A stretch of 64,000 nt of DNA from Actinomycetota bacterium (GTDB lineage: Bacteria; Actinomycetota; Thermoleophilia; Gaiellales; Gaiellaceae). Location of the stretch: contig SIRU01000046.1 in NCBI GenBank assembly GCA_004366385.1, positions 1 to 64,000 on the forward strand, given 5' to 3'. This document shows, in pieces, positions 17,827-22,965 of this stretch (its first letter is position 1; every line of letters begins with the position of its first letter). A program made the translations under genes and the position numbers. Below the pieces are notes generated by a model, which searched no databases, was not told the DNA's origin, and saw only the letters and a program-made list of their open reading frames with translations.

Positions 17827-19095
17827 ATGTCGCGGGAGTACGATGCGGACGTGGCCGTGACGGCGAAGACGACGCTCGACGCGCAGCGTCTGCGCGCGGA
17901 CTTCCCCATCTTCGAGCAGACGTTCCACGGCAAGCCGCTCGCCTTCCTCGACTCGGCGGCGAGCTCTCAGAAGCCGCGCCAGATGCTCGAGGCGATGACG
18001 CACTTCTACGAGACGTCGTACGCGAACGTGCACCGCGGCGTGTACCAGCTCGCCGAGCGCGCGACCGAGGCTCTCGAGCTCTCGCGCGAGAAGGTGCGTG
18101 CGCTCCTGAACGCGCCCTCGGCGCGCGAGGTGATCTTCGTCCGCAACGCGACCGAGGGCATCAACCTCGTCGCCTACGCGTGGGGGCTCTCCAACCTCGG
18201 TCCCGGCGACCTCGTCGTCGTCACCGAGCTCGAGCACCACTCGAACTTCGTCCCGTGGCAGTACATCGCGCACCGCACCGGCGCCGGCTTCCGGATGATC
18301 CCGCTGGACGACCACGGCCAGCTCCGGCTCGACGAGCTGGACTCGATCGCCCGCGAGGGAAACGTGAAGGTGGTCGCGACCGGCGTCGTGTCGAACTCGC
18401 TCGGCACGATGAACCCGGTCGACCGGCTCGCCGCCTGGGCGCACGAGCACGGCGCGATCATGGTCGCGGACGGCGCCCAGTCCGCCCCGCACATGAAGAT
18501 GGACGTGCAGGCGCTCGGCTGCGACTTCGTCGCGATCTCGGCGCACAAGATGTGCGGCCCGAGCGGCGTCGGTGCCCTCTGGGGGAAGGCGGAGCTGCTC
18601 GAGCGCATGGAGCCGTTCCTCACGGGCGGCCACATGATCCGCTCGGTCGGAGTGGACGACTCGACCTGGGGGGAGCTCCCGCACAAGTTCGAGGCCGGGA
18701 CCGCCCCGATGGCCGAGGCGGTCGGCTTCGGCGCCGCGATCGACTACCTCACGGAGATCGGCTTCGACGCGATCGAGCGCTACGAGCACGAGCTCGCCGC
18801 GTACGCGCTCGACAAGCTCGCGGAGCTCCCGTGGGTCACGTCGTACGGCCCGCCCGCCGACCGGCGCGCTGGGATCGTCTCCTTCAACGTCGACGGCGTG
18901 CACCCGCACGACGTCGCGCAGGTTCTCGACTTCGAGGGAATCGCCATCCGCGCCGGTCACCACTGCTGCCAGCCGCTCATGCGCAAGCTCGGCGTGGCTG
19001 CCACGAACCGCGCGAGCTTCTACCTGTACACGATCCCGGACGAGATCGACCGCCTCGTGGACGGGCTGCACAAGGTCAGGAAGGCGTTCGGGTAG
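17827..19095 (+). CDS. sufS: Cysteine desulfurase SufS
   Basis: SufS (422 aa) is a class V PLP enzyme that takes sulfur from cysteine for Fe-S assembly. Visible features are the YANVHRGVYQLAERAT start block, the PLP Asp/Gln region (VADGAQSAPH), the PLP Lys in SAHKMCGPSG and the catalytic Cys in AGHHCCQPLM. An in-frame GTG at 17851 is an alternative start. It is followed by sufU with a 1-nt overlap, the usual SufS-SufU pair of Gram-positives. Confidence 0.95.
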   Translation: MSREYDADVAVTAKTTLDAQRLRADFPIFEQTFHGKPLAFLDSAASSQKPRQMLEAMTHFYETSYANVHRGVYQLAERATEALELSREKVRALLNAPSAREVIFVRNATEGINLVAYAWGLSNLGPGDLVVVTELEHHSNFVPWQYIAHRTGAGFRMIPLDDHGQLRLDELDSIAREGNVKVVATGVVSNSLGTMNPVDRLAAWAHEHGAIMVADGAQSAPHMKMDVQALGCDFVAISAHKMCGPSGVGALWGKAELLERMEPFLTGGHMIRSVGVDDSTWGELPHKFEAGTAPMAEAVGFGAAIDYLTEIGFDAIERYEHELAAYALDKLAELPWVTSYGPPADRRAGIVSFNVDGVHPHDVAQVLDFEGIAIRAGHHCCQPLMRKLGVAATNRASFYLYTIPDEIDRLVDGLHKVRKAFG

Positions 19096-19529
19096 TGGGA
19101 GAGTTCGAGCAGCTCTATCGCGAGCTGATCCTGGATCACTACAAGAGCCCGAGGAACCACGGGCTCCTCGATCCCGCGGACGCGAGCGCCGAGGGGCAGA
19201 ACCCGCTCTGCGGCGACGAGATCGCGGTCACCGTGCGGCTCGGCGCGGACGACCGGATCGAGGAGGTCGGCTTCGACGGCCGCGGCTGCGCGATCAGCCA
19301 GGCGGCGACCTCCATGCTCACCGATCTCGTGAAGGGGAAGACGGCGCAGGAGGTCGCGGAGATGCCGAAGGACGACCTCCTCGACGAGCTCGGCATTCCG
19401 CTGACGCCGGTGCGGCTCAAGTGCGCGATCCTCGGCCTCGGCGTGCTCAAGCTCGCGCTGCACAAGGCGCGCGGGACGCCGCTGCCGGAGGAGTGGGGAA
19501 CGTCAGCGCGCGACCTGGTGCTGGAGTAG
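19095..19529 (+). CDS. sufU: Sulfur-transfer protein SufU
   Basis: SufU (144 aa) is the zinc-dependent sulfurtransferase that activates SufS. Its ligands are present: NPLCGDE with Cys and Asp, GRGCAISQA, and the late Cys in RLKCAILG. The ILDHYKSPRNHG start is typical, as is the insert around LVKGKTAQE that separates SufU from IscU. GTG at 19095 overlaps the sufS stop. Confidence 0.94.
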   Translation: MGEFEQLYRELILDHYKSPRNHGLLDPADASAEGQNPLCGDEIAVTVRLGADDRIEEVGFDGRGCAISQAATSMLTDLVKGKTAQEVAEMPKDDLLDELGIPLTPVRLKCAILGLGVLKLALHKARGTPLPEEWGTSARDLVLE

Positions 19530-19537
19530 CGGCCGCT

Positions 19538-19855
19538 GTGGCCGAGATCGAGGTCGCAGCGGTCGACGAGCTGCCGCCCGGTTCGATGCGCCTCGTCCCG
19601 GCGGGCGACCGCGTCGTCGGCGTCTACAACTGCGCCGGTTCGCTGTACGCGATCGAGGATCGCTGCTCGCACGACGACGGCCCCCTGTGTGAGGGCGACT
19701 GGGAGCCTGATCTCTGCGTCGTCGTGTGCCCGCGGCACGGGTCGCGCTTCGACCTCGAGACGGGGATCCCGATGACCCTCCCCGCGTTCGCCCCCGTGCG
19801 CACCTTCCCGGTCTCGGTGCGGGACGGGATGATCGTGGTCGAGGTCGAGGAGTAG
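19538..19855 (+). CDS. Rieske [2Fe-2S] ferredoxin (NirD/bphF-like)
   Basis: This 105-residue soluble Rieske protein has CSHD and CPRH cluster ligands 20-odd residues apart and the surrounding FDLETG patch. Such proteins carry electrons to oxygenases or nitrite reductase, and many actinobacteria place one at the end of the suf operon. Its partner is not clear; the Rieske oxygenase at 45141-46241 is far away. Confidence 0.88.
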   Translation: MAEIEVAAVDELPPGSMRLVPAGDRVVGVYNCAGSLYAIEDRCSHDDGPLCEGDWEPDLCVVVCPRHGSRFDLETGIPMTLPAFAPVRTFPVSVRDGMIVVEVEE

Positions 19856-20454
19856 TGCTTGACGCGACCATCCTTGCGACGCTGGCCCGGCTCGAGGAGG
19901 AGGACCGGGAGGAGCGGGACGCCGGGCTCCCTCCGGAGCGACGCTCGCGCCAGGTCGCTCACTCCACCGGTCGCTTCCTGTTCGCCCTGGCGGCCGCGCA
20001 GGCCGGGATCGAGGTCCTCGAGATCGGCGGCTCGCGCGGCTACTCGTCGATCTGGCTCGCGGCGGGAGCACGCGTGCTCGGCGGGCGGCTCGTGTCGCTC
20101 GAGCACGACCCCGAAAAGTGCGCCGCGTGGCGTGCGAACGTCGCGGAGGCCGGTCTCGAGGAGTGGGCGGAGCTCGTCGAGGGGAACGCGTTCGAGACGC
20201 TCGAGCGGACGCAAGACGTCTTCGACCTCGTGTTCCTCGACGCGGAGAAGGACGACTACGAGGCGCTCTTCGCGCTCGCGCGGCCGCTGCTGGAGCCGGG
20301 CGCGCTCGTCGTCGCCGACAACGTCCTCTCGCACTCGGAGACGCTCACCGCGTACTCGGCCGCACGGCAGGCGGACCCGACGCTCTCGAGCGTGACCGTG
20401 CCGCTCGATCGCGGCCTCGAGCTCTCCGTCGTGCTCGCCGAGTTCGCGTCGTAG
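19855..20454 (+). CDS. O-methyltransferase (class I SAM, family 3 type)
   Basis: This 199-residue protein resembles catechol/caffeoyl-CoA-type O-methyltransferases. It has VLEIGGSRGYSSIWLA (SAM motif I), LVSLEHDPEK, FDLVFLDAEKDDY with the metal Asp, and VVADNVLSH. The GTG start at 19855 overlaps the Rieske gene stop by one base. It is the last gene of the suf-side operon. Substrate unknown. Confidence 0.8.
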   Translation: MLDATILATLARLEEEDREERDAGLPPERRSRQVAHSTGRFLFALAAAQAGIEVLEIGGSRGYSSIWLAAGARVLGGRLVSLEHDPEKCAAWRANVAEAGLEEWAELVEGNAFETLERTQDVFDLVFLDAEKDDYEALFALARPLLEPGALVVADNVLSHSETLTAYSAARQADPTLSSVTVPLDRGLELSVVLAEFAS

Positions 20455-20499
20455 AGATCGACTTTCCTCCATCCGCACGCAGTGCGTATGCTGCGCGTA

Positions 20500-20696
20500 C
20501 CGCGGAAAGGAGGTGGTCCCACTGACTGACGACTGTACGGGCTGCGGAGGTACCAGCGGGTAGAGGCGTGTCCCCGGGACCACCGGGAATCGCCTAGCCA
20601 GCGTAGGGGGCTCGCGATGACGCGCCGCACGTCGCTCCGCACGGACGACGCGCCGGAAGCGCCTCTACCAATCCAACGCTGGTCACCGTCGAAACG
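20500..20696 (+). ncRNA. Candidate structured RNA with a sequesterable extended Shine-Dalgarno
   Basis: This gene-free stretch opens with ggaaaggaggtggtccc (20504-20520), nearly the full complement of the 16S rRNA 3' tail. Long-range pairings are perfect. ggtggtccc (20512-20520) pairs with gggaccacc (20576-20584), hiding the Shine-Dalgarno. ggtagaggcg (20559-20568) pairs with cgcctctacc (20660-20669). ccagcgt (20598-20604) pairs with acgctgg (20676-20682). A hairpin also fits at 20589-20618 (atcgc/gcgat, agcc/ggct). Some helices exclude or cross each other, so a switch or pseudoknot is possible. A strong terminator follows at 20697. No known RNA class was recognised. Confidence 0.5.
20522..20563 (+). 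CDS. Candidate 13-residue CxxC leader peptide
   Basis: A short frame starts at CTG, exactly 8 nt after the aaaggagg core of an unusually long Shine-Dalgarno, and ends at tag. It would encode MTDDCTGCGGTSG. Two Cys in a CxxC arrangement and a perfect spacing argue for translation, although CTG is a rare start. It lies inside the loop of a helix that can hide its ribosome-binding site. The nearby Fe-S and cysteine-desulfurase genes make a cysteine- or metal-linked role tempting, but this is speculation. Confidence 0.35.
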   Translation: MTDDCTGCGGTSG

Positions 20697-20724
20697 AGGA
20701 AGGGCCGCGCGAGCGGCCCTTCCT
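20697..20724 (+). terminator. Strong GC-rich terminator hairpin
   Basis: aggaagggccgc pairs perfectly with gcggcccttcct over 12 bp around a GCGA loop. It separates the plus-strand RNA unit from the minus-strand FMN reductase gene and could serve both directions. The T run is short (tcctct on one side, tcctcg on the other). Confidence 0.75.
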
Positions 20725-20740
20725 CTGTGCGCAAGGCCGG

Positions 20741-21298
20741 TCAGGCCGCCGCGACGAGGTCGGGCACCGCCTCGGCGACGAGCGCGAGCAGGTGGCGCTC
20801 GAGGCGCCCGCGGACGGTCTCGTCCACGAGGCGCAGCTCGTCGTCGAACGCGAGCTGCGCGCGAGCGACCGGGAGCTCGCCCGCGGTCACGCGCGCACCG
20901 GCGACGCCCAGCACCTTGCGTAGGTCCTGCTGTGCCCAGATCGCCCCGTAGCTGCCGGTCGTCGCCCCGGCGACCGCGACGGTCTTCCCGGCGAGCGCCG
21001 CCCCGTCTCGGGGCCGCGACGCCCAGTCGATCGCGTTCTTCAGCACTCCCGGGATCGAGCCGTTGTACTCGGGCGTGACCACGAGCAGGGCGTCGGCCGC
21101 GACGATCCGCTCGCGAAGCTCCTCCACCGCCGGCGGGGCCTCTTCCCCGTCCACGTCCGCGTCGTAGGGCGGCAGGTCGCCGAGCCCGTGGAAGAGCTCG
21201 ACCTCGACGCCCTCCGGCGCGAGCTCGACCGCGGCGCGGGCGAGGGCCGCGTTGTACGACCCAGCCCGCAGGCTGCCGGGGACGGCGAGGATCCGCAC
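20741..21298 (-). CDS. NADPH-dependent FMN reductase (flavodoxin-like)
   Basis: This 185-residue protein has the NADPH:FMN reductase fold: LAVPGSLRAGSYNAALARAA (phosphate loop for FMN), VVTPEYNGSIPGVLKNAIDW (the family PEYN-G-hallmark) and GATTGSYGAIWAQQDLR. It reduces quinones, azo dyes, chromate or flavin at the expense of NAD(P)H; the true substrate is unknown. GTG start at 21298. It is 1 nt downstream of the yceI-like gene and probably in its operon, under the divergent MarR regulator. Confidence 0.85.
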   Translation of the reverse strand: MRILAVPGSLRAGSYNAALARAAVELAPEGVEVELFHGLGDLPPYDADVDGEEAPPAVEELRERIVAADALLVVTPEYNGSIPGVLKNAIDWASRPRDGAALAGKTVAVAGATTGSYGAIWAQQDLRKVLGVAGARVTAGELPVARAQLAFDDELRLVDETVRGRLERHLLALVAEAVPDLVAAA

Positions 21299-21299
21299 G

Positions 21300-21848
21300 T
21301 CAGGCCGCCCTCACCGCCGCGAACGTCGCGCGGAGCGTGACCTCGTCGGGCAGGAGGAAGCCGCCGCCCGGAAGCGGCGCGTTCCACGCGAGCCCGAAGT
21401 CGTTCCGGTCGACGACACCCTCGAGCTCGACGCCGATGCGCTCGTTCCCGTAGGGGTCGTGCGCCGCGCCGACGAAGCGGCCCTCGAGCTGCACGGGCTT
21501 CGTGACGCCCCTGATCGTGAGGTCGCCCTCGACGCGAAGCTCGTCGCCCTCGACCTCGACGGAGATCGACGAGAAGCGGAGCTCCGGATGGCGCGCCGTG
21601 TCGAAGAAGTCGGGCGACTGGAGATGGCCGTCCCGCTGCTCGTCGAACGTCGTGAGGCTCCGCGCGTCGACGACGCCCTGGAGCGACGGCGCGTCGCCAC
21701 CCGTGATCGTCCCCGTGAAGCCCGGCACGCGGCCCTTGATGTTGACGAGCCCGGCCTTCCTGACCTCGAACTCGAGCACCGACCACACGGGGTCGATCGT
21801 CCAGGTCCCGGCCGGGATCCCGGTGGTGACCTCTGCGAGTGCTGACAT
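21300..21848 (-). CDS. YceI-family lipid-binding protein
   Basis: This 182-residue protein has the YceI beta-barrel pattern: GTWTIDPVWSVLEFEVRKAG, LRFSSISVEVEGDELRVEGDLTIRGVTKPV and RNDFGLAWN. YceI proteins bind isoprenoid chains. No signal peptide is seen, so this one is cytosolic. Two ATGs compete, at 21854 and 21848. AAGGAG lies only 1-2 nt before the first but about 7 nt before the second, so 21848 is chosen. It is divergent from a MarR gene. Confidence 0.85.
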   Translation of the reverse strand: MSALAEVTTGIPAGTWTIDPVWSVLEFEVRKAGLVNIKGRVPGFTGTITGGDAPSLQGVVDARSLTTFDEQRDGHLQSPDFFDTARHPELRFSSISVEVEGDELRVEGDLTIRGVTKPVQLEGRFVGAAHDPYGNERIGVELEGVVDRNDFGLAWNAPLPGGGFLLPDEVTLRATFAAVRAA

Positions 21849-21878
21849 GGACATCCTCCTTGTGTGCTTTACTATTGA

Positions 21879-21896
21879 CTACGCAAACAATCGTAG
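21879..21896. promoter_or_regulatory. Candidate MarR operator between yceI-like and marR genes
   Basis: An inverted repeat ctacg/cgtag with an 8-nt AT-rich spacer lies midway between the divergent yceI-like and marR starts, in the most A/T-rich patch of the area. Size (18 bp) and place suit a MarR-dimer site controlling both genes. The arms are short, so this is a suggestion. Confidence 0.4.
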
Positions 21897-21906
21897 CGGG
21901 AGAAAG

Positions 21907-22386
21907 ATGCCCAGTCAAGTATTGATCGAGCAATCGTTGGGAGCGCAAGCGTTCGTCGCGCTCCTGCGCGCGCATGCGACGGTCACGCGCGAGCTGAGCG
22001 CGCGGCTCGACGCCGAGCACGGCCTCACGATCTCGGACTTCGAGGTGTTGCTCAGGCTCGTGGCAGCACCCGAGCGGAGGATGCGGCGCGTCGATCTCGC
22101 GCAGGAGGTCCTCCTCACCGCGTCGGGGATCACGCGGCTGCTCGACGGGCTCGAGCGTGCGGGCTTCGTGGAGCGCGACTCGTGCCCGACCGACCGGCGG
22201 GTGGTCTACGCGGTCCTCACCGACGACGGCCTCGCGAAGGTGCGCGAGGCGGCGGCAACCCACTTCGCACAGCGTGACGAGCTGCTCGGGACCCGCCTCG
22301 ACGACGGGGAGCTGATCGAGCTCGCGTCGCTCCTCGGACGGCTCGGCGGGCGCGACGACGCCGCGCCGTGTGACGCGACCGCGTAG
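21907..22386 (+). CDS. MarR-family transcriptional regulator
   Basis: This 159-residue winged-helix repressor has LTISDFEVLLRLVAAPERRMRRVDLAQEVLLTASGITRLLDGLERAGFVER, wing DRRVVYAVLT and a C-terminal dimer helix. It lies divergent to the YceI-like and FMN reductase genes and probably regulates them and itself in response to a small aromatic or oxidising ligand. ATG at 21907 follows GGGAGAAAG. Confidence 0.85.
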   Translation: MPSQVLIEQSLGAQAFVALLRAHATVTRELSARLDAEHGLTISDFEVLLRLVAAPERRMRRVDLAQEVLLTASGITRLLDGLERAGFVERDSCPTDRRVVYAVLTDDGLAKVREAAATHFAQRDELLGTRLDDGELIELASLLGRLGGRDDAAPCDATA

Positions 22387-22395
22387 CCCGCCTCG

Positions 22396-22965
22396 TCAGC
22401 CCTGCTCGAAGTTCTTCCAGTAGCGGCTCGGTGTCGGGCCGCGCTGACCCTGGTACTTCGAGCCGATCCCCTCGGAGCCGTACGGCCGCTCGGCGGGCTC
22501 GGAGAGCTGGACGAACGACAGCTGGCCGATCTTCATCCCCGGGTAGATCGTGATCGGCAGGTTCGCGACGTTCGAGAGCTCGAGCGTCACGTGCCCGTCC
22601 CAGCCGGGGTCGATGAACCCGGCCGTCGAGTGGATCAGCAGCCCCAGCCGGCCGAGCGAGCTCTTCCCCTCCAACCGCGCGACGAGGTCGTCGGTGGGCG
22701 TGCCCCGCTCGAGCGTCGAGCCGAGGACGAACTCGCCAGGGTGGAGGATGAACGCCTCGCCACCCTCGACCTCCACGAGCTCGGTCAGCTCCTCCTGCTG
22801 CGCCTTCACGTCGATGTAGGGGTAGCGGGAGTTCCGGAACACGCGGAAGTACGCGTCCACGCGCACGTCGAGGCTCGAGGGCTGCATGAGCGAGTCGTCG
22901 TAGGGGTCGATCCCGATGCGGCCCTCCTCGAGCAAGCGCCGGATGGCTCGGTCGGAGAGGACCAC
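22396..22965 (-). CDS. dcd: dCTP deaminase
   Basis: Dcd (189 aa) deaminates dCTP on the route to dTMP; actinobacterial members often also have dUTPase activity. The sequence has [14 protein letters not shown] at the start, [40 protein letters not shown] (active site with Arg, Ser and Glu) and a C-terminal [11 protein letters not shown] nucleotide-covering arm. GTG start at 22965. TAGAAT lies 6 nt before the GTG, so a leaderless mRNA is likely. Confidence 0.95.

Follow-up and report, generated by a model that had tools for sequence, protein, structure and literature searches.

We identified, in the window (the whole 64,000-nt stretch of DNA that was analysed), an RNA that we interpret as a stand-alone translated sRNA of the Ms_IGR-5 group (RF02471) and most likely as a translation-operated RNA switch, an interpretation to which we give a little less than even chances. 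Comparison of its copies in related genomes revealed homology to that group, a shared reading frame, a set spacing between a second Shine-Dalgarno (SD) sequence and the stop codon, a covarying helix that contains the stop codon, and neutral drift of the encoded peptide. The membership in Ms_IGR-5, the second SD sequence before the stop and the location of the stop codon in a covarying helix are new with respect to the initial annotation of this DNA. The features of the RNA are listed in Table 1.

Table 1. Positions of the RNA and its elements in the window
Feature	Position	Strand	Evidence
Whole RNA, ~228 nt	20499..20726	+	5' end predicted; conservation, covariance model scores, fold z
-10 promoter box TATGCT	20487..20492	+	TANNNT conserved at fixed distance
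SD1 AAAGGAGGUGGUCC, near-complete complement of 16S 3' tail	20506..20519	+	16S pairing, near-invariance
Micro-ORF CTG...TAG, LTDDCTGCGGTSG, 13 codons + stop	20522..20563	+	frame conservation, neutral amino-acid change
P1, GUCC (20516-20519) with GGGC (about 20538-20542, in ORF), start codon in loop	20516..20542	+	weakly supported
SD2 GGAGG, 10 nt before stop codon	20546..20550	+	fixed GAGG-to-stop distance
P2a 5' arm ACCAGCG, last ORF codons	20552..20558	+	matched arm types
P2a 3' arm CGCUGGU	20677..20683	+	matched arm types
P2b 5' arm GGUAGAG, includes stop codon	20559..20565	+	covariation
P2b 3' arm CUCUACC	20663..20669	+	covariation
P3 hairpin GGCG...CGCC, loop holds anti-SD GGGACCACC (20576-20584)	20565..20594	+	pairing, modest covariation
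Terminator hairpin, 13-bp stem (20696-20708 with 20713-20725)	20696..20725	+	sequence, fold, relatives' terminators

Transcription unit and relation to Ms_IGR-5

Judged from the sequence, the promoter, SD1, the 13-codon frame, two long-range helices and the terminator belong to a single transcription unit of a Gaiellales-type (Thermoleophilia) genome. A TANNNT hexamer was found 21-23 nt 5' of GGAGG in 41 of the 45 order-level copies, the rest of the flank being unconserved, and the transcript is expected to start near 20499. The terminator that had been noticed initially is present, with a stem that we count as 13 bp instead of 12 and a poor U-tract; many relatives carry TTCTTTT. Compared with dinucleotide shuffles, the fold of the RNA gave z = -3.95. 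The neighbours in the window are an O-methyltransferase and an FMN reductase, the latter (20741-21298) being the next gene and lying on the opposite strand, while in other families the RNA is found beside dcd (dCTP deaminase), a DtxR-like repressor, gyrA, a histidine phosphatase, a class IV aminotransferase or alanine dehydrogenase. With a fixed -10 box, a terminator of its own and neighbours that vary, it has the form of a free-standing predicted transcript, which bears out the initial annotation, where it was described as a self-contained RNA unit that does not serve as leader to a downstream gene.

The promoter sequence is what points to expression in the Gaiellales host organism. A homologous transcript has been validated by RNA-seq in S. 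lividans (PMC8079986), the S. avermitilis homologue forms a transcription unit (PMC8780764), and a homologue overlaps an sRNA in M. smegmatis, the overlap being with IGR-5 (PMC10454040). Two side observations concern the surroundings of the RNA. In short DNA-search matches, the terminator stem GGGGCCGC...GCGGCCCC (window 20696-20725) recurs at several unrelated sites on other contigs of the genomes G000 and G036. Members of the order tend to have the RNA close to sufS/sufU or dcd (window 17827-22965; L036, L037), although its immediate neighbours change.

A DNA search at E up to 0.01 detected the RNA in 54 of 61 related genomes, the few weakest matches being short GC-rich stretches only; the named relatives that carry it are Thermoleophilia, several of them labelled Gaiellaceae. 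The initial annotation had made its proposal depend on conservation outside this genome, and such conservation was thus found. A covariance model of 37 order-level copies (R1) had matches in 159 of the 299 class genomes and in 32 of the 396 phylum genomes. A second model (R2), with 72 positions and 53 copies from across the phylum, had both branches in its training set and is hence not independent evidence of homology; it matched 156 of the 396 phylum genomes, almost always in a single copy. The window copy, which is in both training sets, scores 119.5 bits with R1 and 61.3 bits with R2. One genome (G022) has three copies or fragments, on C131, C229 and C292, as a mixed bin or by real duplication; a contig labelled Acidobacteriota (L186, JAGWRZ010000087.1) carries the Thermoleophilia form of the RNA and is possibly mis-binned. 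No phage match was obtained with the mycobacterial copy as query, and no plasmid match with the streptomycete-type copy.

R1 was built from order-level copies only and RF02471 was built independently of it; the two coincide at the same place and on the same strand in ten genomes (G083, G086, G101, G423, G455, G462, G471, G550, G561 and G568). We therefore concluded that the window RNA is homologous to Ms_IGR-5. The distant copy L097 (G568), compared with Rfam, scores 45.9 bits with RF02471, which is above the cut-off. In the window region the curated score (45 bits) was not reached, with no RF02471 match at E up to 5, and the model has no match in the window copy's own genome and order. As RF02471 detects neither the window copy nor its order, the window RNA is, by this comparison, placed as a diverged Thermoleophilia branch of Ms_IGR-5 outside the curated boundary. 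The elements shared with Ms_IGR-5 come in the order of an A-C-rich 5' end, GGAGGUGGUCC, GGAC, (G)GAGGUG, GCUAG, a 3' AGUCACC element and the terminator. Rfam treats Ms_IGR-5 as a non-coding sRNA of Actinobacteria and draws a different 5' pairing (SD with GCUGCC); its model is without the frame, the SD2-to-stop spacing and P2 that the window RNA and its relatives have. No function for Ms_IGR-5 was found in the open-access literature searched.

Other known RNA classes did not account for the window RNA. At the gathering score, a tRNA was the sole Rfam match in the window, and at E up to 5 the window region gave chance or terminator-driven matches only, such as RsmY. An RsmY/RsmZ-type RNA (RF00195) was rejected at 24.6 bits against a gathering score of 57, the match consisting of a short GGA hairpin and the terminator hairpin. 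Neither bacterial SRP RNA (RF00169) nor tmRNA (RF00023) has a match in the window, and the genome has its own copies of both, at C51:9170-9269 and C44:80421-80788, respectively. tmRNA resembles the window RNA in being stable, in acting together with the ribosome and in containing a short internal frame, but the window RNA lacks tRNA-like ends, has no tRNA-like domain, and its frame is entered through an SD sequence.

Reading frame and its two SD sequences

The near-complete complement of the 16S rRNA tail seen in the initial annotation proved to be a selected SD sequence. AAAGGAGGTGGTCC has a single 0-mismatch occurrence in the window, at 20506-20519, where 0.12 chance matches are expected when up to 2 mismatches are allowed. 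In this genome the 16S tail reads GGCTGGATCACCTCCTTTC, and GAAAGGAGGUGGUCC pairs with it over 15 contiguous nt including one G-U pair, which makes SD1 an uncommonly strong ribosome-binding site; across the phylum SD1 is nearly invariant (53 copies). It had also been proposed that a perfect 9-bp anti-SD sequesters this element. The pairing exists (GGUGGUCCC/GGGACCACC, 20512-20520 with 20576-20584), but its 9-bp form is present in 10 of the 45 order-level copies and is a genus-level character, so it was rejected as a general feature; the GGACC core of the anti-SD was found in 35 of the 45, and what occurs more widely is the 5-bp core GGUCC/GGACC alone.

The frame that follows had been described as 14 codons starting at CTG; the frame and its spacing are conserved, and the length is 13 codons, 14 being reached by including the stop. 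CTG at 20522 lies 8 nt past GGAGG, and the TAG stop occupies 20561-20563. All 48 order-level copies have a start codon in frame with a conserved UAG or UAA, 6-10 nt after GGAGG, and the start codons are TTG, GTG, CTG and, once, ATG. The SD-to-stop distance in these copies takes all values modulo 3, the start codon moving accordingly. Among 40 held-out copies, which were not used for the model and in which length changes recur but which are mutually related and thus not 40 independent events, ATG, GTG, TTG or CTG stood in frame with the stop in 36, compared with 6.0 expected when the interior was shuffled; the remaining 4 have ATC or ATA at 8 nt. ATT, ATC and ATA are rare start codons, best known from infC. 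One of these three is the sole well-placed start codon in L089, L099, L100, L101, L104 and others, and such starts could make initiation IF3-sensitive.

The encoded amino acids behave differently from the frame. Between nearest-neighbour copies, 15 of 61 changes were synonymous, compared with a neutral expectation of about 0.245, a ratio that is based on 61 changes in total and in which RNA constraints could mask codon signals. The CxxC motif stressed by the initial annotation is complete in the window copy only among the 48 order-level copies, the others having Ser for at least one Cys. A Cys-peptide function was rejected, since Ser mostly stands in place of Cys in other copies and the amino acids drift neutrally. 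From the in-frame counts and the neutral synonymous share, the frame and its ends look selected and the amino acids do not; the micro-ORF is probably translated, and its translation apparently counts for more than the peptide produced. The sequence and the peptides had no matches in the open-access literature searched, within which the coding finding is likely, but not certainly, new.

SD2 lies just before the end of the frame. In all 98 copies the stop is preceded by GGAGG or GAGG, at a distance of 10 nt in 59 copies and of 11 nt in 39. With the stop codon in the A site, SD2 would be 7-8 nt from the P-site codon, which is a normal SD spacing, and this suggests that SD2 may hold the terminating ribosome. 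The frame through SD2 reads Ser-Gly-Gly in the window lineage and (Leu/Arg/Cys)-Glu-Val elsewhere. A C-terminus TxEVxxx is found over much of the phylum, with T-x-E-V-x-x-(R/G/S/C) recurrent in Actinomycetia and several other groups, and it could be a conserved peptide instead of a by-product of SD2. Together with the phylum-wide conservation of frame, SD and stop, this would fit a very short mRNA or a dual-function RNA with a functional micropeptide. We consider this unlikely, since the synonymous share equals the neutral expectation, the window and f5 lineages read SD2 in another frame, as SGG or GGG and not EV, and the E-V codons, which show almost no synonymous alternatives, fall on the nearly invariant GAGGTG.

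Long-range helices around the stop codon

The two long-range helices of 10 and 7 bp in the initial annotation are present and correspond to P2b and P2a, respectively; mutually exclusive helices do exist in this RNA, and P2b covaries. For P2b, 95.5% of cells are paired in 19 distinct arm pairs, 4 of the 7 pairs have changed on both sides, and the covariation score was reached by 0 of 500 shuffles; because UAC/UGC served to locate the 3' arm, the three pairs at that site are fitted, and the evidence comes from the other four. Copies with a UAA stop have UUAC partners, and UAG/UAA thus covaries with the partner. P2a has many arm types with matching partners, for example ACCAGCC/GGCUGGU, ACUCGC/GCGAGU and ACGAGCU/AGCUCGU. 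The 3' arms of P2 were extracted by terminator-anchored alignment. A swapped-arm energy test over the whole phylum gave a weak result (native -16.2 versus -13.8 kcal/mol, native better in 75 of 98), because the 3' arm was wrongly located wherever a second hairpin precedes the terminator; P2 is therefore claimed firmly for the order only.

P3 is paired in 94.6% of cells with modest covariation, and P1 in 79% of cells over 53 copies. P1 shows no covariation in these copies, as its SD side hardly varies, and it was not accepted as a covarying helix. The consensus fold of the order-level copies contains an SD/AUCGCC pairing, and in mycobacteria P2 competes for the equivalent strand.

Two natural copies bear on the P2 region. 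L017 (G029:C79, about 1501-1660) keeps SD1, the frame, SD2, the stop and P3, followed by a terminator, and is without the P2 3' arms; P2 is thus not indispensable. L011 (G002:C23, about 1600-1660) has a tandem duplication (GGCTCGCGATTCGCGCTGTGCGTGCC repeated) in the variable arm between P3 and P2b, from which it follows that large changes in length are tolerated in that arm.

In the free RNA, the predicted unpaired probability is 0.01 for the stop codon, 0.00 for the P2 3' arms and 0.93 for the start codon. When a ribosome footprint was masked on the stop, the energy model predicted for this one sequence that P2 opens and the anti-SD pairs with SD1, the unpaired probability of the anti-SD falling from 0.56 to 0.03.

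A possible mechanism and other readings

In the mechanism that we infer, from translation itself through the holding of the ribosome and the switch to any downstream effect, SD1 would recruit the 30S subunit via up to 15 base pairs. The ribosome would then read 10-15 codons of unimportant sequence and stop at a base-paired codon (P2b), where SD2, 10-11 nt 5' of the stop and at normal P-site spacing, may hold it. The held ribosome would keep the 5' strand of P2 open, with the 3' half freed or re-paired; in the genus of the window the anti-SD could then close SD1 and limit loading to about one ribosome at once. Ribosome occupancy would in this way set the fold of the RNA and presumably its stability or its activity towards a putative partner. 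As the masking result was predicted by an energy model from one sequence, and only 10 of the 45 copies have the 9-bp form, the general claim is weaker, namely that translation to the stop is predicted to open a conserved helix. Of the earlier idea that the RNA switches translation of its own Cys peptide, the selected SD and frame and the exclusive helices stood, while the Cys peptide did not and the 9-bp sequestration is genus-specific.

The same SD elements would serve an RNA that tethers 30S or 70S particles through SD1 and SD2 and so lowers or stores translation capacity, in the manner of a hibernation factor. The near-complete anti-16S sequence, nearly invariant phylum-wide, the second SD at a fixed distance from the stop and the frequent non-AUG start codons are in favour of it, but a single chromosomal copy per genome would have to yield about as many transcripts as there are ribosomes, and we regard this reading as quite improbable. 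Low weight is likewise given to a conventional base-pairing sRNA that regulates target mRNAs through its loops, with translation serving only to protect or clear it. The homologue is classed by Rfam as an sRNA, it belongs to a set from an Hfq pull-down in M. smegmatis (reviewed in PMC4109619; IGR-5 overlap, PMC10454040), and unpaired conserved loops and a linker exist; the strongest conservation, however, is in the ribosome-binding and frame elements and not in a seed-like loop. The short translated ORF with alternative helices and a terminator behind it recalls attenuators, but a leader or attenuator of a neighbouring gene is refuted for the window by the next gene on the other strand and, with neighbours that differ between families, is hardly credible elsewhere.

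The translation-operated switch that we prefer has partial parallels in known systems. In leader-peptide attenuators of the trp and ilvB type a short translated frame ends in competing helices, as does the short frame here; the window RNA differs from them in having no downstream gene, a terminator of its own and no conserved amino-acid codon bias. At the prfB (RF2) frameshift site an internal SD just before the stop, at compressed spacing, acts on the translating ribosome. The window RNA likewise has an SD-like element just 5' of its stop codon, but the spacing is normal (7-8 nt to the P site) and no frame continues past the stop. SgrS and RNAIII are dual-function sRNAs containing a short ORF, and the window RNA resembles them in this respect, whereas its coding sequence drifts neutrally and it is the act of translation that looks selected.

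More tentatively, the RNA may represent a class of ribosome-operated regulatory RNAs in much of the Actinomycetota, possible but on balance doubtful, in which the coding sequence is arbitrary and the RNA reads ribosome occupancy and switches its fold. Selection in such a class would keep the geometry only: a near-complete SD, an open frame, and SD2 10-11 nt before a stop buried in a helix.

Mycobacterial and streptomycete Ms_IGR-5 carries the annotation of a non-coding sRNA. Should the conserved core be a translation device, then an uncharacterised RNA found in roughly two fifths of the sampled Actinomycetota genomes would be testable as such in M. smegmatis or Streptomyces, and, if true, it would clearly exemplify an RNA whose conserved product is the act of translation and not the peptide.
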